Of a stretch of DNA of 64,000 bases, positions 22,917-45,451 are shown piece after piece (the first letter of the stretch is position 1; the number at the start of each line of letters is the position of its first letter). The translations under genes and the position numbers were made by a program. The notes beneath the pieces are model-generated. The model was given only the letters and a program-made list of their open reading frames with translations. It searched no databases and was not told the DNA's origin. Source of the stretch: Chloromonas sp. AAM2 (lineage: Eukaryota; Chlorophyta; Chlorophyceae; Chlamydomonadales; Chlamydomonadaceae); assembly GCA_004335635.1 (NCBI GenBank), contig QAXH01004600.1, forward strand, positions 55,115 to 119,114, read 5' to 3'.

Positions 22917-25900
22917 CTAGACCCTGAGGCCGGGCATCTTGTTGAGGCCCCCAAAGTCGGAGGGCCTAGCCAGCAGTCCCGCCACGTTCAGCTCCTTGAG
23001 GTCGACCACCCGCATGACGGGCACCTCGTCGGCTGACGGCCCGTCGCTGCCCAGCAGCACAATGCCAATGCCCTGGCCGGGCCACAGGTCCTCCTGCAGT
23101 GGGCAGACAGAGATTTGAGTAATTGAATCTAGGCAAAACACGCTCGAGGCTAAGCACAGTATCAAGACCATCTCACTCTCTCTGGCCTAACTCTTTGGCC
23201 TGAACACGCCCATTAATCAAGGGCACTGCCAGGGCTGACACCACAGGGTGCAGTGCGTGCCAGCCACAGATGCAAGCAAGCAAGTCAATTTTTGAAATGG
23301 ACGCATATGCAACGGCTGGCTGATATCCAAACCCAAAGTTGCCTGGCGCTGCTGCCACTCTTCTTCTCCCACAGTAGAGGGCGATGCAACATGGAAAGGT
23401 GGCAGCATGCTCTGTGGTCATCGAGCACTTTCAAGCTCAGCACGGTCCCCCCTCAGCACGCCTTGAATAATGTCAAGTACATTATGGCTAATGGCTTCGT
23501 GCTTGGACAGCAACTTGAATGTTATATGAAGTGTGAGCCAAAGAACCCCACTTGTAGACCGGGGCTCCTACCTGTGTCGCCTCGGTGCGAGCTGCAATGA
23601 CAAGGGCGTCGATAGGCACGTTGAGGGTGGGCACCTTGACTGCGTGCTGACCAAAGATAGCACTGGCCTGATTGGCCACATGCTCGTTGGTTGTGATCAC
23701 CATCTGTAAAGAGCGCAACACAAGCCACCCTGAGTCATGGACCTGAGCAGGTTCTACACACAGGCAGACTAACCCTCTAGAGGCACGTGCATACAGACTG
23801 TGCAGGCAACGTTCCCGAGCTCTTCAAAAGCACTGTGTTCATTTTGCGTGCGTGGCACTCTTTGCTGCACACATGATCCTGCGATTGGCCACGCCGTCTT
23901 TGCCGTGTGGCCCTCTTTGAAGTCTGTGCCGTGTGTGAATGCCAACCAAAGGTGCTGGGTGTTGACAAAAGTGCGCTGGTATGGTTGGCCTTGGCGGTTT
24001 CCACACACTCACTTGTGGCACCGCAGGCCTGTACTTGGCCACCATGCGCGCCGCCCTGCCCGTCTCGGTGATGACGATGATCAGTTGTGCATTGCACTCG
24101 ACCATGGTGGAGGCCACAGTGGCGCCGATGGCCTCGGACATGCAGAAAGGCTTGAGGGAGTGATCCCTGCCAAGCCCAGGCAACCAGCGCACTGGAATCA
24201 AGAGACTGCACCGTCTATGCATCTAAAACCAAGGACAGCTAAGCTGGAAGAGTCTTCAACAGTTGGAAGACACGGAAACCAGAACAGACACATGCCGAAA
24301 GCATGTTGTGATTGCAATCGAGTCCTGCTTCACAATGCCCACCTGATGAAGGCTTGTGTGGCCGTGTAGCAGCTTGCGTTCTCGGCGTTGGCCACAATGG
24401 CTGCCATGGTTGCCACTGCTGTGTCAGGGAACTTGCCGCTGGCGGTTTCACCTACGCGGCGGTCAGGACACTTCAGGCTCAAGAGGATGCTCAACACATT
24501 TCCAGGTGAACGAAGCAGACTGACAGCTCCCAAACCCCTTTGCCACATTGCAACTGGTGTATTGAATGCATTAGCACCTGGCAAGAAGCAGCTCATGCAT
24601 GCATCACCAGAAGCATAAGCACGAGAAAAAATTTCATGAGTGGGGCGGCTTGGATGTGGGCGCTGTGAGCACACTGCGGACGTGAATGAACCCTGACAAA
24701 CTGCATAAGACTGCCTTGCAAGCACGGAATCAGATGCATGTCGTCGTGTGAAGTCTTGTGTTATGAAATCAATCGCCGGGCTCCATGTGATCCTGTGATC
24801 CTTTCATTTCAAGCCCTGACAAGCAGGTCACAGTGACAGTGTGCTGCTGTCAAGTGTGCTACCATGGCTGAATTATGATATGACACCGCCCAGATGGATA
24901 CTGATGCAATCAAAGGTGGCTTTCCCTACCTTCACGTTGGAAAATGATTGTAAAATGGCCTCGTGTGAAGTCTCGATTGAAAACAAAAACGACCCTTGTG
25001 TTTTGCTCGTGTTCTGAAAATTTTTCTAAAAAGTCCCCGTGTTGATTTTGAGGACGTACGGTATCGCCATCACTGACCTGACAGCATGACAGCGTCCGTG
25101 CCATCAAACACCGCATTGGCGACATCTGTCATCTCCGCACGAGTTGGGAGTGGGTTGGCCACCATGCTCTCCAGCATTTGTGTGGCGGTGATGATGAACT
25201 TGCCGGCTATGTTCGCCTTGGTAATCATCATCTTCTGAGCAAGCGCCACCTGGAAATGCAAAGAGGTGAGGCCCAGCTGAGGCACAGTCAAGTGGCAACA
25301 GAAGACTCCAACTTCAACAGTACCAAGTTAAGGACCAAGGGTCGCATCAGCACTTCTCCCAAGTCAATGTCACCGTCAGCTAAATGCATGGCACACACGA
25401 TTTGAGCGACCGAACCAAACTGTTCCTTACACACAGTTCGACTTGTCACACATGGCATGGTTGGCACTGAGCCTGCACTGATGTTGTCTGAGCTTTCCCT
25501 CGCACACACTCCAGTCCGCCCACCTTTTCCGAAGGGATCTCCATGGCCAGATCCCCGCGTGCCACCATGATGCCGTCGCTCTCCTGGAGAATGGCGTCGT
25601 AGTTCTGCAGCCCCGCTTCGTTCTCAATCTTGCTGATGATCTTCACATGGGCACCGCCCGCCTCGGTCAGCACCTTGCGAATGAACTGCACGTTCTCGGC
25701 ACTCTGCAGGGGCAGCACATGCACGTGCGCAATGTGTGGTTGTTCAACTCACAATGACTTCCGGACATCAAGTGCAAGGGCACAGCGTTCAGATGATTTG
25801 CATGTCGTCACAACAGATACTGCAGTTCTGATGACGTCAGGAATTCAAACACAAGGGCACAGCATACGGTTTGCATGAGACACCGTCAAAGATCAAAGGC

Positions 25901-27918
25901 TCGCCATCAGCAGTGTCTCAAACCACCCACCTGCACGAAGCTGGCCGCCACGAAGTCCATGTCGTTTTTACAGCAGAACTGCTGCAGGTCATTGATGTCC
26001 TTGGGGGTGAGCACTGGGATGTCCACGTGTACGCCTGAGGTGCACGCGAACAAGCATGATGACGCTTTTCAGCAGTGTGTCTGGCAAAGGCAAGACGCTA
26101 CTGGAGCATTTCTAATGGAGTATCAGCCCCTATGGCGCGTGATGTGTCAGTATGCAGAAGGGCGCACAACGGGTAGCCTATACCAGATCAGAGGCAAGAC
26201 ATGCACATGGGCTGCCTGCACTGATAAATGCCAGCATGTTAGTCAACAACTAGACTTTTTGAGTACCTTTAAAAGATCTAGTTGTGATTCTAGGAAACGG
26301 CTGCAACTGCACGATGTTGCACCAAGCAGCAGTACACAACAACACTTAATGTTGGACAATGTAATAAAAACACACATGTAATGTCACAGTGTGCCTGCTC
26401 CCCCTGATTGGCGTCCTGCACACTTCATTTACCTGGTAGGTTGACGTTCTTGCGTGGCCCCAGGCTCTTGGAGTTTAGGCAGCGGCCCCTCAGCTCAGTG
26501 TCACTCAGAAGCTCAAGGACCTCGATGCTCAGTGACCCGTCCGCCACCTGAATCCTCTTGCCGGGGCCAACCGTCTGGCACAGCTTGGTGTAGGAGATGC
26601 CCACCTTGGTCTCCCCTGCAGAGTGTGGGGCACAGTGTCGCAGTCAGACAAGGTGACTCAGCCAGTCTCAGCCTGCCTCGAGTGCACAGCTGGCCACGAA
26701 GCTTGCCTGATTGGCCATAACACGCCATCATCAGCCTAACAGGTCTGCTGCTTACTGCTCGAGGACCTACACCTCTGTTTGGATCTCCGCCTTCTTGGAT
26801 TGCGTTGTCTTTCTCTCTTGCTTTGTTTCCCAAAAGGCGCAGCATATCATGTCAGCCAAGAGGCATCCAAGAAAAGGCGTTGTTTACTGCTTGACTTGCA
26901 CGCCAGGTCCCTAGCAATGCTTGCAATGGTTGAACAGAAGCCACTCTGCGCACCTGTTGCCTCGTCCTTGTATCCCTCCCACTTGTCGTAGGAATCCCCA
27001 ACGGCCACCAGCGTCACCTCCTGGCCCGCCACCAGGTTGATGTCCTCGCCGCCGCGCGTCATGGCAGTGCGGATCTGCAACATGGCATACAGCAAAACAC
27101 GTACACGCATGCTGAGGAGCAAGTTGTATGCACACTGGGAGCAGAAATGCTTGCATGAAATGAAACGACTGGCTGAATGCCTGATGTGTGTCAGTATAGG
27201 GTTGTGGGGCATGTTCGGTTCACAGCCTGCCTGCACATGACTGCTGTGAAGCGTCGCTTCTGCATGCATTGCACTCCGGCACGGGCTGGGCATAATCGTG
27301 AAAGAAAAAGTGGCGCACAGCCAACATGACCTTTGGGATTGTGGATGCCCTGTCTGCATGGTTGAGCTTTCTCCGGTTCCCGTGGCGTGTATGCATGAAC
27401 CAAGCCCATGGGCATGAGGTATGTTCTTACCTCGGGACCCTTTGTATCCAGCAGTGTTGCCACGCGCTTCCTCTTGTTCTCGGATATCTGAAGGGCAAGG
27501 CAGGTGAAGGACTGATGCGGTTTCACACAAGTTGGGCTTGAGCCATAGGCAAGGCCTTGGATGATGCTTGAGCGGTGTGCATTTCTATAAACAAGCCACA
27601 AGTGTTTGAGCGTACACGCCAAGACACTGAGAACAACTTGTATTGCCACTACAACGACTGCACAGTCCATGGGCATTCGTGATGCTTGGGGTAGGCAACT
27701 CAACACAGCAAAATGAGGATCGTGAACACCAGGTTCAGGCCCTGACTAGGCTTTAGTTTTGAGTGGCAGTCGCTTACCTTTCTCAGCCTGTCCAGCACCT
27801 CCTGGTGTCCCTCGTGCGTGCCATGGCTGAAGTTGAACCGGGCGACGTTCATGCCCGCGTCCACAAGCTTGCTGAGGCCCTCCTCGCCCCAGGAGGCAGG
27901 GCCAAGGGTGCACACAAT
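22917..27918 (-). other. Pyruvate kinase module 4 (active-site residues intact) and C-terminus
   Basis: Exons: 27918-27778, 27487-27431, 27074-26954, 26615-26433, 26034-25931, 25703-25524, 25249-25078, 24451-24343, 24166-24013, 23703-23572, 23093-22917. Residues about 1890-2403. Intact: [62 protein letters not shown]. The protein ends [12 protein letters not shown] then TAG at 22917-22919. Parts of exons 49 and 50, and the intron DNA next to exon 49, are nearly identical to module 3, suggesting recent duplication or gene conversion. Confidence 0.87.
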
Positions 27919-30900
27919 CTGCGCACGTCATGACAGAGGCTTTGGTCATCCAACACCGTGTTTCTGGTGAGACACTGATGTTGTTTTTGCATTATGCTGT
28001 CATTACCCGATAGCCTACATGACCTTCAGAACCATCAGACAGTGCATGGCACGACATGGTTATTGAACATGCATGGTACATGTGGCACGACATGGTTATT
28101 TAACATGCGTGGTAGTGGGCACAATCGCCGCAGCTCAGTCGGCATTCGACGTGCACGCAGATCCGCACACCTTGGTCTTGCGTGGTGGCGCCGCGGGTGT
28201 GAGCACATCACTCAGTGAGATGGCGGTGGTACGCAGGGAGAGCGTCTTGGTGTTGTCACGATCGCTGGCCACATAGGGCATGGACACACCAGGCGCAGCC
28301 TGCGAGCATGCCAGGAGCATACTGTCACAAAAGCACTGCCTGCAGGCTGAAACCAAACAATGCGGACACCAACCCATCCGCACGTGCAGAACGAGCATGA
28401 GCTTACACATGCCGCATGCCCTGCTTTGGCTACTCTGTGGAACAGCAAGCTTGCGTTCAATCTACGTCCGGGCAAGCACGCATGGCCATGAATTCAGTGG
28501 GTGCATGTGCCTGCCACATGACCTGCTTCAGCTCTTTGTTGGTTTCATGTGATCATCTGGTCAAGACATCGCCCTTCACCTCTCGTGCCCGGGTTGAGCA
28601 CTTCAATGCAGTCTTAACAACGCACACACAGACACTAACACTCGACCCATTTGGGCATGTGGGGGTATGTGCGCACAGCTGCCAGATCACCTGCTTTAGT
28701 TGCTCCATGGCATAGCAAGCTTGTCATGGAGCTGTTGCTATGGCCTTGACAAACACCATTTGTGTGTTGTCCTCTCACCTTGATGCAGACCATGGGCATG
28801 CTCTCTGCGTCCGACTCCAGGCAGCCGTGTACCACCACCACCTCCCGCCCGGGCTGGCACAGGCCCACCTCACATGCGTAGATGGTGGCCTGAGAGCATC
28901 ACAGAGAGTACATATTCGTACACAACCAGACACAGGTGGTGTTCTGCCTTACAAGGTACACATTTAAGGCATAGCAGGTACCATTACATCCTTGACCGTT
29001 TTACACAGTGGCTTTTTAGCACGTGGCCTTGTACGTAAGAAGCTTACCCGAGGGTTTAGGCTCTTGTCTGGATTCGGCTGAGGTGATAAGCCGGCCTCTC
29101 ACCTTTTCCAACATGATCTCAAAGTCCACATCTTCTCTTGAATACGGGATTGTGTCCACGAAGTACGGGTGCAGCGCGTACACGGGGCCGCACTGCCGCA
29201 CCACACGCTCGCTGTTGGTGACCACCAGCACAGGCACTCGGGGACGGTACTTGACAACCATGCGTGCAGCATCACCTATGGGCAACCACAGTTGCATGGT
29301 TTTGATTGGGTACATGTCATACAAAACAGAAACGCCAAACTTGTCAACAAGAGCCGAGCAGCTCGAGCAGACAAGGTACACCTAAATGGATAGCAAACCC
29401 AGCGTTGTGAAGGTACATACAAGTGCTCGTACTCGAGAGGCAGACACGTTCTTGTTACTTGCGGCAAGGTCTGACCTTTGGTGGTGACCACGATGATCAT
29501 TCCTGCTTTGACGTCCATAGCATCCTTGGCGGCGCAACCCAGCACAGCCTCCTTCGTGCTCATTGGCTTGGCGGTGAAATCACGAATGAAGTCGTACGTC
29601 TGCGTTGAAACAGGCAAGTGTGATCAAGTCAACCGTCTCGAGCGAGGGCAGCGCTGCAGCATCTAGAATCCAGCCGACATCATTATCGCGCCTGACGGCG
29701 AGCGACGAACACATGCATCGTGTCGTACTGCAATGCGACAGTTGCGATGGTGCATCAGCATCTAGGTTCCATTTTGTAATATTAAGCGTGGCGGCGAGCT
29801 AGTGTGGAATGCGCCGCGTGTCAAGTTGCAACGAAATTCCGTACCTGATAGTAATTGACTCCAACCTCGGCGTTGGCTACAATGGCCGCCATGGTTGACG
29901 CCGCCTTCTCTGGGAACTTGCCACTGGCTGTCTCGCCTGCGCTCATCAACGACCGACGAGGTGAACAGTCAGCATACGGTCTTTGCACACGAACAGACCA
30001 TGCTGTCTCGCTGTGCAACTCAGACGTCTAAGTTCAGGATAGAGGCCTGCACCGAAGAGACCGCACTAAGAGATGTGCTCGATGTGCCAACCGGCTGCAC
30101 AAATTCAAAACAGAGCATCACGTGCCTGTGTTCACTGACCTGACAGCATGACAGCGTCCGTGCCATCAAACACCGCATTGGCGACATCTGTCATCTCCGC
30201 ACGAGTGGGGAGTGGGCTCTCGACCATGCTTTCCAGCATCTGTGTGGCGGTGATGATGAACTTGCCGGCTATGTTCGCCTTGGTGATCATCATCTTCTGA
30301 GCAAGGGCCACCTGTGGGTGCAAACACCGACTCAACAGTTGAAACACAGCCAGCTGACGGGACAAGGGGTGGCAAGTAAATGAATCCAAGAAACGAGGAA
30401 GCATGACAAGCAGACTCTCTGGAGACCAGTGTGCCGCTTCATGGAGTGTTTTGAATATGATGTGCTGAGGAATGGCACTGGTTGGCGCTGAGCCTGCTCT
30501 GATGTGGTCTGAGCTTTCCCTCGCACACACTCCAGTCCGCCCACCTTTTCCGAAGGGATCTCCATGGCCAGATCCCCGCGTGCCACCATGATGCCGTCGC
30601 TCTCCTGGAGAATGGCGTCGTAGTTCTGCAGCCCAAACGAGCTCTCTATCTTACTGATGATCTTGATCAGCTTGCCACCCGCTTCATCCAACGACTTTCG
30701 AATGAACCTGCAGCAACACAACAGGAACATCCAAGTGAAACTCGCTGAGCAAGCATTCCACCCATCAATTAAACGTCACTGGTGTGTTGCTGACTTGGAT
30801 TAGAATGCTTAGCTGCCAGGTGGTTTGGCAGCCTCTGCTCACCTGACGTCATCAGCAGTCTGCACGAAGCTGGCTGCCACGTAGTCCATGTAGTTCTTGC

Positions 30901-33900
30901 ATGCAAACTTCTGCACGTCCTCCAGGTCCTTTGGCGTCAGGACTGGCAGCCGTACCTAAACGAAAGGACCAGATGGTCAGTGGAGAGTGAGGCATTGACG
31001 TTGCCATCCCAGCATCACATACATGCAGCAAGGGCTGTTTACTCCAAAGCTGTAGCAGGACAAATCCAGCCAGGCCAGACTAGTACAAAGGTGGACCAAG
31101 GAACACAGGCAGGCTGGTGGCATAAATCTGAGGCTTCACCATCAAACTTACCCTGACACCAGGCAGGTTGCAGTTCTTGCGTTCTCCCAACATCTTGCTG
31201 TTGAGGACCTTGCCCTTGAGTTCCTTGTCACTCAGGATCTCTAGGATCTCAATGCTGATCTGCACGTGTGGAGACACAATCATACAACGGGTGGGCATAC
31301 GGCAAGGGCATGATGGGACGCCACTGGTACAGGAAGGAAAGGCACTGCATTGTGACTGCTCGACAGCAAAGTGCGTGCTGCAGGTTGGCTGTTGGCTGGG
31401 CAGAGGAGGTGGCTCTCTTGCATTGCCTTGATGCACATTTTCTTGCTGCATTACGCACCGCGCCATCACCGATGAGGATGCGACCGCCTGGTTTGACGTC
31501 CTGGCACAGGTACGGGTAGGACAGCCCAATCTTGATCTCACCTGCACACAAGAACAGGCATAAGGAGACTTCGTAGAGGAACACGTCTTACCGTCCACAC
31601 CTACTCATGGATGCCTAGAGTTCACTTGCATGCTTGCTTTATTATTCACTCCACCTGTCACTCGAAAGATCTGAGAGCTGCAAGCTGGCAATGCCATCTA
31701 CACACAGATGCAGGAATCATGCCAAATAAATTCTGAACAAACAGAGCGGGATAGAAGCTTGAACAGTATCTGCGAGCGCATTCTGTTTCTTGAACATTTG
31801 CTGAGAAAGGAGAAATGTCCACACCTTGTTCGCTCTTGTAGCCCTCCCATGTCTCGTAAGCGTCCCCCACCGACACCACCGTGACCTCCTGCCCCGCCTC
31901 CAGCATCATGGGCTGGTGGTCCTTAAGCATGGCGGTGCGGATCTCCGGGCCCTTGGTGTCGAGCAGCACGGCAGGACGCACACCCTTGGCGACAGCGATC
32001 TTACGAACTCGGTCAAGAACCTGCAAACAGGGTTGATCAAGTTTCCCATTTCTCGTTGTCAATTAACCAGGTCAGGTCAAGCACCGGTAACGGGTATGGA
32101 AAATCCTGATATGGTTGCATACGATGGCATTACATACATACATGGCATATGGTAGCATGGAATGCGGCATTTTGCACGACGATTCCTTCTGCTGCCGCGG
32201 CATGGTCTCTCAACAGTGTGTGCGCCAAAAGCTTGACCACGTCACACCAGGCCAGCACGTGGTGCCAGACAGCATGTTGATACGTTAGAGTTCATGTCTT
32301 CAGGCACTTTGCCCCAGCACACGCCAGATCCAGATCCAGTTTGATCAGGTCAATCGCGCCTGGCCAAAACCAATCTCCCAGCCCAGCTCACCTCCTGGTG
32401 CCCGGCGTGATTGCCATGGCTGAAGTTGAACCTGGCCACGTTCATGCCCGCGTCCATGAGGCCCGCCAGTCCCTCCTCGCTCCAGCAGGCCGGGCCCAGG
32501 GTGCACACGATCTTGGTCTTGCGGGGCGTCTCAATGGGGTCGCACACCAGGTCAAGACCAACCTGAAGCGGGAAGACCACGCAAGGGCAAGCAAGCGCCG
32601 CCATGTCGGAAATTCATAAGGGTTGCAAAGTCCTGCAAATGGTGCTGCTGGTACTATGGAGGAACCTCAGGCACCATAATGACAGCTCTAAAGTGATAGA
32701 TATTCCTGCAGACCGCAACACCACGGCATCACACCACAATGCAGTGTTCAAGCAAGTCTGATAAGCATGATGTCGCGTGTTTGCTCACCATCTCTGACAC
32801 AGGCGTCATCATCTTGCCATGTTCACCTTAGTTGACCTGTAGGCGATGGTGTCCTCTCCCAGGTAGCCCTTGAGCTCCACCAGCTCAGACGCCTCATCGC
32901 CCACCACCATGGTCACGAACTCCATCTCAGCGAGCTCCTCCTCACCGACAAAGTAGCCAGAAGAGGGCCCACTGCAGGGAGTGGAAAGCACGGCTGCTGT
33001 CAGTTCTGAGGCACAGGCATCATGGAGTTGGTTGGGACATCGTGTTGCTTGCCTGCCATTTTTGCGATCCGTTCCAACTCACCTGATGATGACCAACTGG
33101 TCACTGAGCCGATCATCTGCAGCAAACTGTGCCAGGCCCTGCTGACGGGCAAAGGCAATCACCTGCGCGCAGCAAGCACACAGAATCTAAGACACCTCCA
33201 GAGACATGAACATCACACAATGCCTTCCATGGGCTTGCAGTGTTCACGTGCAGGCCTGCAGCTCTACCATGTCTCAACCTCAACCGCAACCTGGTACAAA
33301 TCCCTGGTCTGTTACAAATTCCTGGCAAACGCAGACAACCACATAGAGTTCAAGACTCTGCCAGGGACATACACATTCACACATGAATGCTTTGAAAGGG
33401 CCTGCAGCCTGGATGTCTAGGCCTGCAGCATCTCACAGCCTGTACTTCGCCTGTTTAGTCTTGTTGTACAGGCCTGGTACAAGTTCCTGGTCTGTTTAGC
33501 CCACTCTCACCCTGTCACGGATCTGGCCCATGTTCAGCTTGGTTGAGGGCAGCAGCAGGGGAACCGTGCCGAAGTTGAGGTTGCATTGACGAGCTACCTC
33601 CGGACGCGTGGTGCACACAACAATGGGCTGCAGGGCATGCCATGGAAGTCAACATGCGAGTCAGCAAGAGCCATGCCAGACCAACTTCACATGCAGTTAC
33701 CACGTAACTAGCCAGGAGCGTAACTAGCCAGGAGCTGTTTGTGTGTGTGGATGTATAGATGATAGTTGACGCGCTTGGCTGCAAGACCCATGCTTGTTCC
33801 GTGCATTTGATATGGTGAAGGCATTGGCAAGCCCTTGCTCAACATCTGCCTCATTGCTGCAGTTGCAGGGTAGTAATTGCCTCCAGCCTGAGTTGAATCC

Positions 33901-36900
33901 CAGCCCCACCTGCTTTGGCCTGTACTTTGTCAGCACGTGCACAGGCGTTGATGTATTGCACACAATGGCCACCAGAGCAGCGGACATGTCCAGTGCAGCC
34001 TTGACGGCGCTGCTGCACAGCGTCTCGAGCGTGGCCATGGGCTTGGGTGTGTAGTTGCGAGTGTAGTTGTAGTTAGCGTAGTGGTCACTGCCTACCTCGG
34101 CATCACGCAGAATAGCAGCAGCCGTGACCACAACCTGTTGCAGCACAGGGGTGCGTTGACGATAGTGATAGAGTGTGTGATCAACTGGAGTTCAGCCATC
34201 TCGTCCCAGAAGTGGGCACAGAACAGAAGATGGCATAAACTTTAACCACGCATTTGAGCAAGAGTATGCAGTCGATTGGCACGGGCAAGTGACACTGCAC
34301 AAGAAGCGACTCAGGTGCCAAGGAGGGTTGCGGCACAACATGAGCTGTGACCAATGAAGGGCAAGACCCCTCAAGAGAGGGTGAATGCTGCCCACCTTTT
34401 CCACAAACAACCCAGATGCAGTCTCTGTGCGCAGCAGGATGGCGTCTGCCCCATCGTACATGGCATTGGCCACATCTGTCATCTCAGCGCGTGTAGGCCT
34501 GTTTGCAAGGCAGGGCAGAGCAGAGTGTGTGTGCGTGCGTCGGTCTACACCGGATGCACTTTTCCACGGCTACACGATGGGCAGCAATGGCAAGACACTG
34601 AATCGCAGTTTCCACGTCTGGTGGCCCTGCATCAGACTTGCATCCAGCGCTAGCAGGATATTCCACTGGATGTGGCTTTGCATCAGAGTTGTATCAAGTG
34701 CTGGCAGGATGTTCCACTTGATGTATGGTCGAGCAGGGCTGCAGAAGTCAGTGGTTGCCTGCTGTGCCTACCTGGGTGTCGAGATCATTGAATCCAGCAG
34801 CTGTGCCGCCACAATGATGGGCACGCCCTTGAGGTTGGCCTTGCTGATCAACCACTTCTGGGCCAAGCATACCTGCACACAGTGTTGTGGCGACAGGCAA
34901 TACCACAGGTTCAGTGTTATGTGGGGTTTCAACGACAAAGAGAGTGGCTGCCTTATCAAGCAACATAATGACTCTGGTGGTCATCCGAATTGTACAACAA
35001 AGCACGAGATGATGTTAATTGCAATAGTTGGTGTGCACGCCTCAGACATCTGATCTTTGCCGAAGCATCCTGAGGTGCGTGTCTGGCCACTTGAACTGAA
35101 TTGAAGTGCACTGCATGACGAGTGGGGACACACCTTCTGTGGAGGCATGCGCAGCCCCAGATGGTTCCTGGAGACCATGATGCCGTCGGACACATCCAGG
35201 ATGGAGTCAAAGTTCGCGATGGCAGGGATGTTGTCAATCTGGGTCACAAGCTGCAGGACAGTGGCAAGGGAATAGACCATCAGGCAGAAGATATGCGTGA
35301 TAACCGACAAGACAGGCAAACAGCAGAAATGGCAAGCGTCTGATGTGCACAACCTGCCTCAGCAATCTGACCCTAACTCAGTTAGACTTGGCCAGAGGCA
35401 GCGATTCAACAGAAGCCTGCCAACAAACTTCCCACACTCATACCTTGATGTGCGCCCCTCCTGACTCATCCAGCATCTTGCGGACCTGTAGCACGTCCTC
35501 GGCGGACTGGACGTACGGCAGCGTGAGGAAGTCAACCTCGCCTGCGCAGAGAGCATGTGTAAACTAACTGGGTTGGACAACCCTCCGATGGGCGGTTGTG
35601 TTCCATTGCCCGAACCCAGCCTGAACATGGAACGGACTTGCTGCGTTGTTGCATTCTAGGCCTTAATCCGCCAAAGGAAAACCCTGATCACCGCATAGGG
35701 CGGTAATGCCCCTCTCAAACATCGTCCATTGCTGAGGCTCTTGCAGCCCTTCACAGCTGCAACGTGGGCTGCAGTAGCATGTCCGTTGAGCCATGTGTGC
35801 TGGGTGTCAAGGTCATGCTTGCCATACTATGCAGGCTCGCCGTCTGCTTGGACGCATCACATCAGCATGTACTCACCAGTCTTCAAGGGAATCGGAAATA
35901 CCAGATTCACTTTACCAGATACATATGCATGAGGCACTGCTCACCATAGTGCTTGCCACAAAACTTGATGTACTCCCTGTCATGCGGTCCCAGGTAGGGC
36001 ATGTTGAGCTTGGCGCCAGGGATGTCTACCAACATAGCCTCACCCAGCTTCTGACCATGCAGGACCTGCATTCAACGTGTATATCCAAATCAATCTGAGA
36101 CCTCCCGACTTCCAGCTTTCATATGCTCGCTGGCATCGCTTTGTATGGCTCTTATGAAAGGAGGTAAAATTGTATAGGACGTAATCTTCGAAACATCAGA
36201 GCACACAACCCAGGTATGTCCAGGGACCTTTGAGCCTGGCCCTGACGTCGCAAGTAAGGATGCGCTGTTGCGCCCGGTCCACTCACCGTAGCCACCACTT
36301 GCTTGTCGTTGACCTGGTCAACCTTGAGAGTGATGGTGCCATCAGCTAATAAGATACGATCACCTGGATGGGGAGCAAGACAGGGGCCGGACGAAAGCAC
36401 TGACTTGCGTTGTGAAACTAGCATGCCGATCATCAGGTGGTGCCTGGCTGGAAGTGCTTCGATTGACCCCGGACAGCAGCCCCTGACCAGGCGTGACGCT
36501 GTGCTCAAACGTGCTCAAACTTGTGCAGTCGAAGCAAGTCCACCTCGTGCCAAAACCAAAGCTTAGGCCTGCGGATTGCCAGGTCGCACCTGGCTTGACA
36601 GACTTGCACAGATCAGGGTAGCTGACGCCAATCATTGCCGTGCCCTTATTCACGTCCTGGGAACCCCTAAACTTGGGGTCAGAAAAGGACACTAAAGTCA
36701 CCTGCAACCACGCATGCCACGGGGATGAAGCTCAAAACTGAGACTGAGACTGTACTCATACCATTTGCGCATGTAGGTGATATTTGCACCTCCAATCCTT
36801 GCATAGTGATGCACCACACCTGTCAAGTGCAACACCGCAACTCTAGGCAAGTGGCGTCACCTGGATTAATGCCATCCAATAGTACCCAAGCCCGTCCAAC

Positions 36901-39900
36901 ATGCATTGTTCACCGTACGTCACTCTACCTTGCTGCCTGCGTTGAGCTGCAGGGGTTGTCCGCCCTTGAGCATAGAGGTGCGAATCTCTGGACCCTTAAT
37001 GCTGCGGAGAACAAGGGAGGCAGGGCAGCGGCGAGTCATATACGGTTTTACTCCGACAAAGAATGTTCCGACAAAGTATGCACAGAGATTACGTCAGGGG
37101 GGCCCACATGCACTGAGTGCGAACGCTAGCAAGCCATGCAAGGTAAGAGGCTGGATACTGAAAAGAAAAAAGAAAGCACAAGTGCCTCGCAGCACCCGTG
37201 CTATCAGGCCACAGAGTCACGTTATACAGAGCGTGTGGGCCACTGTGCAGCGCTCGGTGTCCCACCTGCACATGAGTGCGGGCCTGGGTGTGTACAGGCA
37301 TGCCCCGGAGCCCGGCTTGGCCTTGGCATCCACCACCCCTTTCCAGGAAGACATGATGGACTGGACTTGGTCCTGCAAACAAGGGCATGTGTGGCTCGGT
37401 ACTGGCAGGTTGTAGTGGCACCATTGCACGATCATGTGAAGCTTGGCAGGCTCAGGCTGTGAGGCGGTGGTGCTGAGTGCAAACCCTGAACGTGTGTTCT
37501 AATGATGAGGCTATCGCATTGACGGAACCACACCACAGACGTGCGAGCGGGGACGTACCAGGCCATCGCAGAGTGACATGTTGATTCGCACGATGCTGAC
37601 ACCCTTGTCGATTAGCATGCTCAGGACGTCGGGTGACCAGCTGGAGGGCCCAAGGGTGGCAATAATCTTTGTCCTGAACACAGGCAGCAGCATGACAAAC
37701 TTCTCTCATCTTGGGGTAGTGGAAGTGTCTCTGAAGGGAATACGACGATGGTGCATGACGGTATCGTGATCAAGATGAACTGAAATGGGCTGCCACAGTG
37801 TGAGCTCCTGCTACCGTCTGATGTCCCACTTCTGTCCCTGCACTCACCCTCGGTAGTTGAACTGGGGCTTGCAGATGAGGTCATGGCCTATGCGTAGCGT
37901 CTGTACGCATGTGCTGCATGTTGTGTTGAACGGCGACTGGTAGTGCAGGAAGGTCTTCTGCAGCTTCTTCTCCATGGCAGGAGTTGGGGCCGCTGCAACA
38001 TGCATGAATAAAGTGGACAACAACATTCCAATTGACAGAACACCATAACATCTCGGTAACAAACCAACGCTGCCGTAACACTAGCCAGCTGGCACTCTGA
38101 CATTTCACTCAAGAAACAAGTACACAGGTCAGCTGTTCTAGCCCACATGCCGGATTACTGTATGAACGGCCACATGAATCAAGTGCATGCATGTCAGCCG
38201 TTCCAGCTCGCACGATTGATTTCATAGGCCAGCTGCCAGAGCCTTGCATGCGAAGCCTAGTGCCACACCGCTCAATACTGCTATAACAGCAGCGAGCTGG
38301 AAACCATTCCACACAAAAGCGCCCAACCGAGACTTATCAAGCCAACTCGGTACAAGCTGGGATGGAAAATGACCAGATCTCAGGGTTCCAAGTGCGTAAA
38401 AACGAACGTCTTCCCTATCCAAAAGTTTGTGTCAACTGATGCACGTTTCCTGCCCACGTGGCCCACTGCCCTTGTCACGTGTCTCAGACCCTGATGTAAA
38501 CAATTATTTCTTCAAAACAAGTATTTCTGAACATGTCTAGATAGATGGATATGTATAGATAGGTGGACCGAACTCACCAGGTGATTCATTGGCCTGCACC
38601 ATGAGCTCTGGCATGTCGTCCGCCCACAGCTTATCGGACCCACTCAGCATCAGCACGTGCTTGCCATCCCACAGGACACCGTGCGTCCTGCAAACACCAG
38701 TTGCACATCGTTGCCATCTGCTACCTTGACGACACAAGGGTGGCCATCAAAAGGCAGAGCTGCTTAAGAGACCAGTGTCTGGGCGCTGACAGAACAGGTA
38801 CTTGAGATACATTGCACCGACAGTGTCAGCATATCTCAATGACTGAGCTGCAGTGTTCAGGACACTCTCACTGGAGCACCTTGACCTCACCGCTGCATGG
38901 GCGTGCATCAACAACCACGAACTTGCAAACAGGAGTAAAGTAATTGAAAGGCTCTGGAGATACTCTACACGGACAACTGTGCAGTGTGCGACTCAGCACA
39001 CATCAGAATCGTTGACTGAGATGCTCAAGACCTTGCCCCTGGCTTCTACCCAGCGCACCTTGCATACTCCACAGCCGCCTTGACAGCCTCCTTCTTATCC
39101 ATGGAATTACCATTGGGTAGATGCATGGGGTAGATGCCAAAGCGCGGCGCCGCGCCCCTCAGCACGTGCTCCTGATCGCAGGCCACCACCACGGGGCAGC
39201 AGGGCCGGTACTTGGCCACGAGGTCGGCAGCCAGGCCAGTATGGGTGAAGACAATGATCAGACACCCTGAACAGAGGCATTGACGTGCATTGTTCGGGTT
39301 CTGGGCTGGGCTGATGAACGACCCACGCGAGTGCAGGGGCGCAAACGGATCAGTACACTTCCTGCTCCTATGCGTTTCCTCATATCTCTCGAACTGGTCC
39401 TGCCCATGGCTTCTAGCAGAACTCGCGCAGTGAGCGACGCGTGCAGCCCCTTGCCCTCTGCCCAGGCAACACTCCACCTTCGGAACTCATCCCACCATAC
39501 TCGGTGAGTAGACCTTGCAATGCCCCGGCCCGTTGCCTAGTCTCACTCCTCTTGTGGACTTTCACTAGGCCCTTTCCTTCTCAGCTGTTGTCATCTCCTT
39601 TTCCCCCCACTCTCACCCTCAGTAGCATCCAGCACCCCATCTGAGTTGCTGTCCAGCATGAAGAGCACCGCTGCCTTGGACACGCTGGCAAAGGTGGCCT
39701 CCAGGCCCGTCAGTGGGCCCGCACGCCGGTTGTTGCTGCAAAGGGCAAGCCAGGGACAACATAAATACACCCGAGTACAGTAGACATGAATGATTGGCAA
39801 AGGCGGCCATGGCCGTGCGTGTGGCGACAACTTTGAGTGCGAAAGGCACATGGCTGAAGTCTTTGGAACGACAAGTTGCAATTTTGGCCAAGGCATTTGA

Positions 39901-42900
39901 GTCAAAAAACGAGCCAGACTACCCTCATTCCAATCTTGTGATGAGTTTTGACACAACTTCTTGTGGATGCAGGGGGTAATGCATATGTTCTGATGGCCGA
40001 CCGTGAGCGCAGGTAGCAGTGTAGGTGCCTCAGGGTGTGAGTGAGTGAGTGTATAGTGGTGGTCCCACCTGAACACGCTGATCCAGTCCAGCTGCCTGCT
40101 GTAGTCCAGCCCCAGCTCAGCAGACTCCACAATGGAGGCCATGGTGGACACGGCCAGGTCGGGCCACTGACCATTGGCACTCTCACCTACGCATGAATCA
40201 GAATCGCTACATCGGCAATTGTATGTATGCATGCATATGACAAGAGCAATTGACTGTATGCATGCGCATGCGACAGGGCAGAGCATTCTCATCGTGAACC
40301 ATTGCTGACTGTAGCTAGGTAGATAGGTAGGCAGAGCCGCTACTGACGCTGCTTTATGCATGCATAAGCTTCAGGGCGGAGAATGGTGGTTGAGGGTGAG
40401 TGCCTAATGCTATGTGCTTGTCACTAACAGTTCGTGTGCGTGGTGCAGGTGTTTGTATTGCTGGATCGTTCATAACGTGGATGCCTACCGCCATCTTGAT
40501 GGGCCTATCTGCTCAAATGGGCAGCTAAAAAGGCCGAGAAGTGCTCCACTAGTATGTGCAGTTGCTGAGATCGTGCAGGTAGCTCTGTTGACTGACCTGA
40601 CAGCATGACAGCGTCCGTGCCATCAAACACCGCATTGGCAACATCCGTCATCTCCGCCCGAGTAGGGAGTGGGTTGTTAATCATGCTCTCCAACATTTGG
40701 GTGGCGGTGATGACCAACTTGCCAGCCAGCATGCACTGCAAACACGCAACCCTCGTGGTAGTTGAAGTTGGTTTCAGAAAATGAGTTCCGTGCGAGCCAT
40801 TCCTCCGTTTGATCCTCAAACACTGCTGACTGGGCCATAACACACACATGGCAGTCCAAACAAGGTCTGTCCAAGGTTGAACGAGCAGGACCATTCCACA
40901 GCTCTTCTTCACAGTATGTGACAGCAGTCCATGACTGTTAGCACCAACAGTCTGGCTAAGCAGTGTGCTCTGGATGCCGGGCATTTGTTTGGCACTACTG
41001 CTTGTCTGGCTGCATGCAAGGCACAGCACATGCAACGCCCCCACCCCATCCAGGCTCTGCTCAAGCATGAGTAGTATTGTGTGGTGCTGCTACAAGAAGA
41101 CACACTCATGGGTTCAGCCCTTGAAGCATAGTGCAAGGCCTTTTGTGCATAACTGCAACTCATACCTTGGCAATGATCATCTTCTGGACAAGGGCGATCT
41201 TCTCAGCTGGCACCTCCATGGCCAGGTCACCACGAGCCACCATGATCCCATCCGTCTCCTGTAAAATCAACATGGGCGTTTTGAGTACGCTGGACAGGAA
41301 GGGTGGGGCTATGTTCTCTGAATGACAATGTGGACGGTTTGGAGAAACAGGTTTGACAGGAATGCGGGGTGGTGCTATGTGCTCTAAACCATGGCTGGTT
41401 GGCTGGCCGGTTATGGCTGGCTGGCTGATGCTGCACTGTGCACTGAGGCAGCTTGTTAAGGTGGTATTGCAGCTTCATGTTGAGCACACACCTGGATGAT
41501 CCCATCGATGTTGCGAAGTCCAGCTTCATTCTCAATTTTGCTGATGATCTTGATGTTTTGGCCTCCTGCCTCGCTCAGCACCTGGCGGATCATCCGCACA
41601 TCGTCCGCATGCTGCACGCACACAGGGGCGAGCAGCCAGCAACCACATGTCAGCTCTCCCGATGAGAGGCATGAACTTCACTCAATCCACATCATGGGTG
41701 ATTGAAGACTGCAGATTGTGCCAAAGAATCGTGCCTGCCATGCTAATGCGTACATGGGGGTGCTGGGCAGCGTAAGCACTGATTGTGTTGACCACATCGC
41801 CTGCAACAGTTGGTTCCCTAAATCGACCGAGGACTGGCACTCCAAACTTGTCAGTTGTGAAACTTGCCAAATCAGTACCTGCCTTTGGGAATCACATGGG
41901 GATACCATTGCCACTTGACATGGAAATCAACGACCACACAAGCGACAACCTTCAGCCCTTGCAACTTACCTGTACAAATGACGCAGCAATGAAGTCCATG
42001 CTGTTCTTGCATGCAAACTTCTGCACGTCCAGGATGTCGTTGGGTGCCAGAACAGGCAGGTCCACGTGCACGCCTGGCAGGTTGCAGTTCTTGCGCTGGC
42101 CCAGGGTGTGAGAGTTGATCACCTGCAAGCACACAACCACAGTGCAGGTTGCGGTGGTGACCAACTCGTCTTTGTGAAAAGTGGGGAAAATGGTAATGGG
42201 TGAGCAGCACACCTGCAGGAGCATGTGGTTCTCCATGCTCCGGTTGTCAAAGGTTGCATGCACGAGCATGCAGTGCCCCATTCCCACTGCACGATCACCA
42301 GGTCTGCTGCTTCCTCCGCACCACTGCAACGCATGCTTCCAGTACCAATGCGCCTTCCAGGCTCCATACCTGGCCCAGCCATGCTTCCTGTTGTTGGGTG
42401 TTCCAATCATTGAATGCTGCTAAAGTCTATCCTTTCCGCTGCTCACAGCTTGCCCTGCCCCGTCCATAACCTTGTGCTGGACCACTTCAGGCACTGTACT
42501 TCAGGGCATCATACCTTGCCCTTGAGCTCCCGGTCGTTCAGGATCGAAATGACCTCAATGCTGATGGCACCGTCAGCGATTAGGATGATGTTGCCTGGCT
42601 TGACGCTCTGGCAGAGCTTGGCATAGGAAAGGCCAATCTTGGTCTCACCTGGGGCAAGGAAGCATGTGCAACAACTTGCTTGCTAAAACAGTGTCAACCA
42701 ATATGTTACTGGTTGTCACATGGCCTTCTGTCCTGGGAGGACCGCTCAGTGGGGGCAAGAGCAGGAGGGGGAACAAGCAGCACAACTGACAAAGTGTGCA
42801 GCAGTCAGTTAACTCACCCACATGCCACATGCTAGCAATGTGCAGACCAAGATGCATGGTTTGGCACGGCTGAGGCTCGTCTTCCCTGGTGAAGTTTGTA

Positions 42901-45451
42901 TCCTTACCTGCTGCCTCATCCTTGAATCCTTCCCATTGCGTGTATTCATCCCCGGCTGCGTAAACAATGATGTCCTGTCCTGCCTCCAGGCTGATGTCCT
43001 TGCCACCGCGCAGCATGGCAGTCCGCACCTGCGCCCACAAAGGTGCAGCCATCAAAGCGTCGGCGCTGCCATCACAAATGTATACATTCAAATGAATGTA
43101 GTCATGGTACAGATCGTATGGATAAGCTGCCACTGTTGTTGCCATCGGCTGTCAGCCAGTAACAGGTAGTGCGGAGTCAGGCAGTCATGCAGGCAAACTG
43201 CTGGATAATGCATGCATGCGCTGGACTTTGTCGCCATACAAAAACCACATGTGTGCCTGACCAGGTTGTGACTCCTGCTATCTACAATACCTGTGCATGG
43301 GATGCAAAGCTGTAACAAGCCTAGGGCTTGTCGCATCGGGCAGCCTCTCAAGTGCATGAATACTACACATGATGCGTCCTTACCTCTGGGCCCTTGGTAT
43401 CCAGCAGCAGCCCCACTGTCTTGTCCTTGGCCTTGATCACCTGCATTGGTATTCGTGCACTGAGCTCTCAGTGTAAGTCTTGGCATCACCTGACAGTCTG
43501 CAGGTTTTCATCGTATGCATTCACTCAAAAGGAAGAATAAGCATCAGGCTCCATGAGAATGCGTAATATTTCACGCAATCACATGCTCTTTACTTTTCTG
43601 GTCCAAGAGTCTTCTTCACCTCTCCTTACCTTTCTCAGCCTGTCCAGCACCTCCTGGTGCCCAGCGTGTGTGCCATGGCTGAAGTTGAACCGGGCGACGT
43701 TCATGCCCGCATCCAACAGCTTCCCAAGACCCTCCTCGCTCCAGGAAGCAGGGCCCATGGTACACACAATCTTGACCTTCCGGTCCATAGGCACTTCCTG
43801 TGCAGATGTACACCAAGGGCCATGGTTGCCTATGTGTAAAACCTTAAACAGACTAAACCTTGCAGAATCTCAAACCTTGTTAAACGAGAATTATCTGCAC
43901 CTGCTCTCAACACGATGCCTTGTGTCTCGTGCTTCCAACAGTTCTCTGCTGGCCTGTCGTTTTATTCCAACGTCATGTGCACAGCTTGTACAGTGCAATG
44001 GCTGACTTCCTGCATACAATATGGGTCGTGCCTGCAGTCTTAAACAGCTAGCCGTGGTGTTCAGTGGATTCTGCCCGAAAATGGGCCTTTAAGAACTGCA
44101 CCTCTGCCCACCAAGGTTCAGAGGCTGAAGTTCAGTGTAATATCATGGCTATTTGATAGCTGTGATGGCACGCAACACGTAGATGAAGTCAAGCATTTAA
44201 TTGTCACCAACCTTGAAGATGGTGGTTGGGCTGATGCGTGTGACTCGCTCCAAGACAGTGTCTGGCGTCCTGCACACACACATTTACAAACATGCACATC
44301 AAGTCTAATGCCTTGGGCAGGCTCTGTCTCACATGCAAACCTGCCTCACCGCACCCCTTCTGGGTAAGTTGACCATGACTCACCTCTCTGGAGGTATAAT
44401 CGAAACAGGCCGGTACTCAGGTAGCCAGTCTGCTGCTTGCTGAACCTTAAGAGCAGCTGCAGCCACCTCACGCTTGTGGAATTCCTCCTTGAGATCATCA
44501 TGCGACTGCGTGCCGCAGACAGGACCGGCATTGGCCTTCTTTCCGGCATGCAAGGTTTATGCAAGGATTTACGGAACCAGATGATTCATACCTGAGCCTT
44601 GTGTCTCTACCATACCTGAACTCGCTCCAATCTGCTTTTCGTCTCTGTCAATGCCTTTTCGTTCAGCGCCTTGTGCGATGCGATCGTGTCCACATCCCGA
44701 ACGCTCCTGCCTCTGCTTTTGCCTGCAATCAGGGGATTGCCGTCCGATACGCCATTGCTTGTGGAACCATCGGGCTGAGCCTTGTCTGAACGCTTCTCCC
44801 TCCCATGGGAATTCCCCATCGGTGGAGCTGGAACAGGAGGATCAACCCGTAATCAGGATGGAATCCGAAACCCTTGACAATCAATGCCGGACTGATGGAC
44901 GGTGTGTCAGCCAGCTGTGAAAGCACTGTGCGATGAAACTCTGATTCCAAGCTATCAAAGGGTTCAAGTACGAATCAGTCGTGGCCAACAGACCAACCGT
45001 TCTTGATGATTCAAAAGTACTTCATCGATTTTCGACACTCATGTGCAGCCGGCAAAGCAATCGGCAAACAAAAGGAAAACATATCCATGTATGCTCCCGG
45101 CTTACCTCGTTGTGTGCCACGCACATCTTCAATGGTCATCGTAGAAGTTGACGTGGGCTCCCGGCATTGAACCACATGGCTGGAATGCGTGGCCACCTGT
45201 TGCAACCCTGTGTTGGGCAACACCAGTGGCAGGAGACGAGGCTGAGAGGCAGAACTTGTCTGGCCATGTTGTGATGACCAGGCCCATGACTGAGGTGGTC
45301 CATAACTGGGCCCATGACTAAGTTGGCTGGTGCCAATGAGCTTGAAACCGTGAAGTCGAGCGTAAATTTTGTTAAAAATGGGGTCTGCTGACGACCTGGG
45401 AATGCCATTTGGAATGAAGTTGGACGAGGGCACGACCTTGAACAGCAGCAT
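22917..45451 (-). CDS. PYK: Four-module (tetra-domain) pyruvate kinase polyprotein
   Basis: Pyruvate kinase converts phosphoenolpyruvate and ADP to pyruvate and ATP. This gene reads as one frame of 7212 bases (2403 residues) over 54 exons. Every donor/acceptor pair is GT-AG and every phase matches, with no stop. Order: an N-terminal region of about 257 residues without pyruvate kinase similarity (exons 45451-45106, 44827-44616, 44538-44384, 44269-44212), then four kinase modules starting near residues 264, 819, 1350 and 1890. Module exons are listed in their own entries. The linkers ([39 protein letters not shown]) run straight from one module into the next inside or across coding exons, so separate genes are unlikely. 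The start is uncertain: ATG 45451 opens a long exon that joins in phase to exon 2, while ATG 44819 is a later in-frame alternative. No transit peptide is obvious, so a cytosolic place is the default guess. I recall that chlorophycean PYK1 models may also be multi-domain; I could not verify this. Confidence 0.88.
28045..28113. repeat. Two-copy 36-bp tandem repeat in a pyruvate kinase intron
   Basis: GGCACGACATGGTTATT followed by (G/T)AACATGC(A/G)TGGTA occurs twice in a row, between exons 43 and 44. Confidence 0.8.
28171..32562 (-). other. Pyruvate kinase module 3 (active-site residues intact)
   Basis: Exons: 32562-32392, 32020-31825, 31541-31459, 31259-31152, 30955-30843, 30707-30545, 30311-30140, 29936-29845, 29599-29476, 29275-29103, 28889-28779, 28299-28171. 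Residues about 1350-1889 plus the linker to module 4. Intact: [35 protein letters not shown] (the Asn after the metal Glu is Ser), [31 protein letters not shown]. It lacks two introns found in modules 1 and 4 (after the RLRK and DTKGPE segments), so that region is one exon of 196 bases here. Confidence 0.87.
32827..37673 (-). other. Pyruvate kinase module 2 (degenerate, probable pseudoenzyme)
   Basis: Exons: 37673-37559, 37372-37266, 37001-36929, 36701-36590, 36363-36287, 36065-35945, 35541-35444, 35250-35134, 34872-34772, 34498-34396, 34134-33910, 33627-33511, 33162-33083, 32971-32827. Residues about 819-1349. The fold is traceable ([47 protein letters not shown]). The active-site positions have changed: NFSHG is NMSLCDG, DTKGPE is SIKGPE, SKIEN is TQIDN (catalytic Lys to Gln), ARGDLG is SRNHLG (metal Asp to His), ATQMLESM is AAQLLDSM. 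All frames remain open, so the module is kept as protein despite losing catalysis. A structural or regulatory role in the polyprotein is inferred. Confidence 0.85.
37088..37202 (+). repeat. Dispersed repeat family B, copy 1
   Basis: Its reverse complement recurs at 51733-51845 with roughly 85-90 percent identity by eye. Shared blocks include ATTACGTCAGGGGGGC, AAGCCATGCAAG and GAGGCTGGATACTGAAAAG. It lies in the intron between pyruvate kinase exons 19 and 20. Confidence 0.8.
37848..43797 (-). other. Pyruvate kinase module 1 (active-site residues intact, EF-hand-like insert)
   Basis: Exons: 43797-43630, 43440-43384, 43028-42908, 42648-42515, 42122-41970, 41611-41492, 41258-41166, 40735-40597, 40186-40069, 39735-39617, 39266-39059, 38687-38578, 37992-37848. 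Residues about 264-818. Key motifs are intact: [10 protein letters not shown] (substrate and nucleotide contacts), [10 protein letters not shown] (K+ site), [18 protein letters not shown] (catalytic Lys and metal Glu), [10 protein letters not shown] (metal Asp), [10 protein letters not shown]. The usual ETASGKFP becomes ESANGQWP. In the C-terminal domain, between SKAAV and [10 protein letters not shown], there is an extra segment whose 12 residues [12 protein letters not shown] match an EF-hand loop. I expect this module to be catalytic. Confidence 0.85.

Follow-up and report, generated by a model that had tools for sequence, protein, structure and literature searches.

A single gene in the 64,000-nt stretch of Chloromonas sp. 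AAM2 DNA analysed here (the window) encodes four consecutive pyruvate kinase (PK) modules in one open frame. Three of these modules retain all catalytic residues that we scored and look active, whereas module 2 looks dead as an enzyme, and a calcium-type loop conserved in related algae is inserted in module 1. Pyruvate kinase is the textbook allosteric homotetramer, and a built-in tetramer is still the natural reading of four modules in a row. On sequence grounds, we consider the product rather probably to be a covalent pseudo-tetramer of three catalytic modules and one non-catalytic module, possibly tuned by calcium and anchored by lipid. A single-chain PK with distinguishable positions allows its subunits to be altered one by one, which is impossible in a homotetramer, and the communication between subunits therefore becomes directly testable.

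Gene model and coding evidence

The rebuilt exon model comprises 7212 nt including the stop codon, and the only stop codon in its frame is the terminal TAG at 22917 (Table 1). All 53 introns are GT-AG, a uniformity that is built in because GT and AG were demanded during exon placement. Four modules in succession each gave Pfam matches above the cut-offs to the PK barrel (PF00224, E 2e-82 to 1e-125) and to PK_C (PF02887, E 5e-12 to 9e-21), and by the possession of both domains each module belongs to the pyruvate kinases. An unspliced six-frame search of the whole genome placed 18 of 35 exon matches to PF00224 in this stretch, where they form four consecutive sets. All four modules have coding-like codon usage: they score 0.28 to 0.41 nats per codon, whereas the 95th percentile of a null of stop-free 345-nt intron pieces is -0.19. 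The rebuilt 54 exons and the Pfam matches thus bear out the preliminary description of one gene with one frame and four PK modules, with the same outer borders, and the four-module chain is confirmed as a real observation.

Table 1. Features of the four-module pyruvate kinase gene, in window coordinates
Feature	Coordinates	Strand	Remarks
Whole gene	22917..45451	minus	54 exons; 2403 aa, or 2285 aa from Met119
Exon 1 (aa 1-115)	45106..45451	minus	Doubtful as coding, possibly 5' leader
Preferred start, Met119	44817..44819	minus	Next in-frame Met; gives MGNSHGRE
Exon 3, with the N-terminal block DLKEEFHKREVAAAALK...DWLPEYRPVSIIPP that is conserved ahead of module 1	44384..44538	minus	From the alignment of relatives
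Module 1 (A), PK + PK_C	37850..43779	minus	18/18 catalytic sites
EF-hand-type loop DSNSDGVLDATE, an insertion (aa 653-664) within the module 1 C domain	39618..39653	minus	By motif rule
Module 2 (B), PK + PK_C recognisable	32521..37849	minus	9/18 catalytic sites, putative pseudoenzyme
Exon 25 of module 2	35134..35250	minus	VTQIDN in place of ISKIEN and VSRNHLG in place of VARGDLA, with loss of the catalytic Lys and the metal ligands
Module 3 (C), PK + PK_C	28180..32520	minus	18/18 catalytic sites
Module 4 (D), PK + PK_C	22917..28179	minus	18/18 catalytic sites

Pfam was also run on eight further open frames in the window and gave one match, a sub-threshold one to SpoVS (16.1 bits, cut-off 24) in a 438-aa frame at 4699-6012 (plus strand) that also contains a CAG repeat at 5389-5421. 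An uninterrupted 794-aa frame at 15527-17908 (minus strand) had no Pfam match at E<=0.01.

Relatives and module history

Residues 120-2285 of the 2285-residue form (the chain from Met119) were searched against a collection of 5.8 billion proteins at E <= 0.001, which returned 63 relatives among 7986 candidates scored. When split with a profile made from this gene's own modules, 29 of the 63 contain four full-length modules, and the earlier guess that related algae share the architecture proved right. All 23 named four-module relatives are green algae, the other six being ENA or JGI entries. The holders include Volvox, Astrephomene, Edaphochlamys, three Chlamydomonas species, Gonium, Monoraphidium, Raphidocelis, Tetradesmus, Scenedesmus, Haematococcus, Pleodorina, Sanguina and Ostreobium, together with Ulva and Mesostigma as read from the portal codes Ulvmu1 and Mesvir1. 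Nineteen of the 29 are of the same type as the present gene (type 1) and 10 are of a sister type; with its four modules, module 1 loop and position-wise grouping in the tree, the Chloromonas gene belongs to this green algal EF-loop type. Linker sequence is conserved at every module border in the 17 proteins compared. The relative P0029, whose MMETSP name we take to indicate a transcriptome origin, carries modules 1 and 2 and the module 3 barrel on a single chain.

In a quick tree of 97 rows, built without bootstrap and with 24 of 94 inner branches open and long branches flagged, the modules of eight type-1 proteins, this gene's included, group by position (modules 1, 2 and 4 at 99% and module 3 at 89% SH-aLRT), and the four-module gene therefore predates the split of these lineages and has been kept since. 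Modules of the ENA entries and Pseudoscourfieldia, which lie outside the chlorophycean type-1 set, cluster by lineage and not by module position elsewhere. Forcing 21 first modules together gave a p-AU of 0.048 in a reduced set of 54 rows, drawn from the 97 by omitting the fourth modules, the dead second modules and a number of taxa; this value is borderline and thus offers no choice between concerted evolution and separate expansions. Shared intron positions were set aside as evidence for a recent duplication of modules, because any two modules have 1-5 of 11-15 positions in common.

Cryptist relatives were P0068 (Goniomonas, MMETSP0114), which consists of the tail of one module, a full EF-loop module and the start of a third, and P0109 (Baffinella). 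Judging from the Goniomonas piece, the tandem form may reach beyond the green algae.

Other PK genes were identified in the same genome. An apparent sister-type gene on contig C1355 (8462-13243) encodes module 3 and a degenerate module 4 with the motifs RFKFSH, DLQGPE, ARGALG and ARHMLE; upstream, where modules 1-2 would sit, is a long run of N, either a gap or withheld sequence (9901/9901 bases in one piece and 7615/9901 in the next). Contig C1381 contains a single-module PK that we take to be of the ordinary kind, and contigs C30, C1042 and C1504 contain PK exons that are presumably of plastid type. Because a single-module PK is present in the same genome, the giant enzyme is an addition to the usual PK and not its replacement.

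Three complete modules and one ruined

Catalytic residues were scored at 18 positions (R72, N74, S76, D112, T113, K269, E271, D295, T327 and others, in what we take to be rabbit M1 numbering), which were located by motif on 190 module pieces. Equivalence of the four kinase modules is not supported: module 2 keeps 9 of the 18 sites, against 18 in each of modules 1, 3 and 4. The module 2 equivalents of K269, E271, D295 and T327 are all replaced, with Gln for the catalytic Lys, Asp and His for the metal-ligand acids and Ala for the substrate Thr, and Asp-Thr is changed to Ser-Ile. By their residues, modules 1, 3 and 4 qualify as active pyruvate kinases and look active, whereas module 2 qualifies only as a homologue and looks like a catalytically ruined pseudoenzyme. 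With module 2 ruined, the chain would represent at most three enzymes and one non-catalytic module. Identity is 56-62% among modules 1, 3 and 4 and 35-39% between module 2 and the rest.

The same pattern is found in most type-1 relatives. All 19 four-module members have complete modules 1, 3 and 4 (18/18), and module 2 is ruined (5-8/18) in 15 of them; the remaining four (P0010, P0012, P0013 and P0014, all ENA entries) have four complete modules, which indicates that the loss of module 2 is not demanded by the architecture. In the sister type it is module 4 that is degenerate (10/10, with 7-14 of 18 sites), modules 1 and 3 being complete in all ten and module 2 in eight, with 13 sites in the other two. 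Two related four-module lines have thus retired different modules, and three active sites seem to be enough, with a non-catalytic partner being either tolerated or of use.

Tracts of nearly identical DNA link the active modules. A module 3 tract at 30472..30712 (minus strand) matches module 4 at 25690..25452 with 87% identity over 241 nt and extends about 70 nt into an intron, and a second one at 30314..30132 matches 25252..25070 with 95% identity over 183 nt. Tracts shared by modules 1 and 4 reach 90% identity; module 2 has only one 66-nt match of 77%, with modules 3 and 4, and none with module 1. The module 3/4 tracts, one of which crosses an exon-intron border, suggest gene conversion. We infer that the active modules are kept alike partly by this process and that the dead one is left out, and shared catalytic constraint could partly explain their likeness.

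An EF-hand-type loop in module 1

An EF-hand loop comprises 12 residues with ligands at positions 1, 3, 5, 9 and 12 and Gly at position 6, and the module 1 insertion DSNSDGVLDATE is canonical by this rule. The motif was matched 33 times across the 183 proteins retrieved, which total 196,204 residues, and always at the same module 1 site; 30 matches were found by the automatic rule and three, missed through truncation or a changed neighbour, by eye. The strict loop is present in 18 of 19 four-module type-1 relatives, and the nineteenth (P0004) differs at the non-ligand position 8, a conservation that is not fully independent because type 1 is partly defined by the loop itself. Its ligands are also conserved in distant relatives. 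Eight of nine readable first modules of the sister type have an insertion at the same spot (e.g., FTEDTTPE) and no canonical loop, and the insertion of P0026 resembles a worn EF loop, suggesting that the insertion may predate the split of the two types.

Pfam identified no EF-hand domain in any module at E<=1, and we therefore refer to an EF-hand-type loop and not to an EF-hand domain. The loop is single and, in the AlphaFold model of the EF-bearing relative P0076, is arranged as helix-loop-strand, so that by helix-loop-helix structure, pairing or Pfam match the protein does not belong to the EF-hand proteins. In this model (18-row alignment; mean pLDDT 79.5, with a low-confidence value of 50 for the loop block), the loop follows a helix at 361-379 and precedes a three-residue turn and a strand at 392-397; all 50 Foldseek matches listed, 3khd among them, are pyruvate kinases. 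The strand leads into a TxxG segment that aligns, by the module 4 alignment, with TETG of the Toxoplasma enzyme, to which we ascribe an effector-loop role. The conserved loop may bind calcium and possibly tunes the allostery of the chain; with such a loop next to the effector loop, algal glycolysis would receive a direct input of an unexpected kind.

N-terminus and start codon

The 2403-residue frame first described is open in the rebuilt model, but its length hangs on exon 1, for which 12 aligned relatives show no evident counterpart. The codon score of exon 1 (-0.13) lies above the intron null and far under those of the modules, which allows for a longer N-terminus. The true start is probably Met119 at 44819 and not the Met of exon 1. 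From Met119 the chain has a mass of 247 kDa, and its leader before module 1 has 145 residues, compared with 155-192 in seven volvocine entries.

The sequence rule for N-myristoylation is an initial MG with the pattern G-{EDRKHPFYW}-x-x-[STAGCN]-{P}, and this protein fits the rule only if Met119 starts the chain. Among entries P0001-P0009, seven of nine, the volvocine ones, start with MGGRGSK or MGVRGSK, and 6 of 10 sister-type members start with MGCGSS, MGCAPS or MGCGQS, MGC starts being suited to palmitoylation as well. A strict MG-xxx-[ST] start is present in 13 of 29 four-module relatives (16 of 47 examined when fragments are included) and absent from the other 16 and from P0029. As a control, a looser pattern was matched by 2 of 124 Met-starting proteins among P0048-P0183, a set with many fragments whose first residue lies within the barrel; P0079, one of these two matches, bears the EF loop. 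Since database starts are themselves predictions, these starts are suggestive only; the N-terminus from Met119 is possibly N-myristoylated and could serve the chain as a lipid anchor.

Proposed mechanism and alternative readings

In the proposed pseudo-tetramer, one chain of about 247 kDa with its four modules would take the place of the usual homotetramer. Module 2, having lost its catalytic residues, may act as a structural or allosteric partner. Calcium at the module 1 loop would shift the state of the C domain and with it the allostery of the chain, and a myristoylated N-terminus, if Met119 is the start and is so modified, would tie PK to a membrane. A bolder form of this proposal, which we consider less likely than not, is a calcium-switched, membrane-anchored single-chain PK of inherent asymmetry, in which the dead module and the calcium loop govern three working modules; it might also explain a monomeric green algal PK reported in 1989 and, if true, would place the final reaction of glycolysis under the direct influence of calcium signals.

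It is also conceivable, albeit rather unlikely, that the fusion fixes only stoichiometry and assembly, that module 2 is a decaying copy and that the loop and N-terminus are non-regulatory. The homotetramer is given as the commonest PK form in a passage of PMC8100219, and module 2 evolves faster than module 3 (best identity 57% versus 77% in the 97-row set), both of which agree with a plain built-in tetramer. However, module 2 forms a supported 8-row clade, is full length in the type-1 proteins sampled and retains coding-like codon usage, and the conservation of the loop ligands in distant relatives argues against a loop without function.

We give little credence to a polyprotein or split gene that yields separate kinases of about 55-60 kDa by transcription or processing. 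Three TGTAA words, which we take to be algal poly(A) signals, are clustered inside one module 3 intron (28953-29005), so that shorter transcripts or an early poly(A) site could arise, and the linkers at the borders could conceivably be cut. TGTAA is uninformative here as an end-of-gene marker, because none occurs in the 917 nt scanned 3' of the stop codon. Against separate products, published passages cite a PK of monomeric form from a green alga, no stop codon occurs at the module borders, the spliced linkers are conserved, and the transcript-derived P0029 spans two borders.

A flagellar PK scaffolded in the axoneme, like the late glycolytic enzymes near the central apparatus, is very improbable, since relatives occur in Monoraphidium, Raphidocelis and Tetradesmus, which are without flagella for most of their life. 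This role was dropped because nothing was found that connects the chain with cilia and because a number of its holders spend most of their life without flagella, although a passage of PMC8175508 describes a fall of PYK1 in Tetrahymena cilia lacking C1b. That adjoining single-module genes were joined on paper by assembly or gene prediction is hardly credible even in a fragmented genome of 2324 contigs, because phase matches over 53 introns, the modules group by position in the tree and the 29 four-module relatives already contradict it.

A candidate for the monomeric green algal pyruvate kinase

Monoraphidium minutum, presumably the former Selenastrum minutum, encodes a four-module protein of 242 kDa. 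In passages of one review and one research paper, a green alga is cited as the source of a purified monomeric PK, which a covalent tetramer such as this one would explain; the four-module gene is therefore a candidate for this old enzyme. On the other hand, review passages describe the S. minutum PK as homotetramers of 57- and 56-kDa subunits and, citing a 1989 paper, as homodecamers, which indicates ordinary subunits there too and speaks against an easy match to the monomer. A C. reinhardtii PYK1 spot with a listed mass of 55,233 (excerpt of PMC4977305) was considered and set aside, as it is not the protein of about 250 kDa.

The joined four-module build is not new, as it is already in public databases. 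In the titles and abstract openings covered from the open literature, we found no description of this build, of the dead module or of the EF loop, a weak negative result because subscription journals were mostly outside its coverage, and no paper in a search by locus tags, one of which was a guess. The present analysis adds the division into three complete modules and one ruined (3+1), the conservation of the calcium-type loop, a start that may provide a lipid anchor and a candidate gene for the monomeric PK.

Comparison with known systems

Classical homotetrameric PKs (Toxoplasma 3eoe and rabbit M1) have the same fold and catalytic residues as modules 1, 3 and 4, the fold being judged from the model of the relative P0076. 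To our knowledge, however, classical PKs are separate chains of about 500 residues with neither an EF-type loop nor a dead subunit.

Dinoflagellate tandem PKs, such as Symbiodinium natans pyk1 (P0045) and those of Effrenium voratum (P0048-P0050), also carry several barrels per chain but differ in that they have five or six modules, each about 350 residues long, with no PK_C among their precomputed domains. More broadly, P0043-P0045 and P0048-P0053 (five from dinoflagellates and four JGI entries) contain four to six PK barrels of about 350 residues, likewise with no precomputed PK_C.

The sister type, which includes C. reinhardtii CHLRE_05g234700v5 (P0022), Haematococcus (P0019), Ulvmu1 (P0031) and Mesvir1 (P0026), differs from this gene in its degenerate fourth module and the lack of a canonical loop, with 42-48% identity. 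In C. reinhardtii XP_001695738.1 (P0008), Volvox africanus Vafri_13670 (P0001) and Monoraphidium minutum (P0011), the four modules stand in the same order as in Chloromonas, with an EF-type loop in module 1, a dead module 2 and complete modules 1, 3 and 4. The replaced residues of module 2 differ in detail among these proteins, whose best local alignments to the Chloromonas protein show 59%, 60% and 56% identity, respectively.
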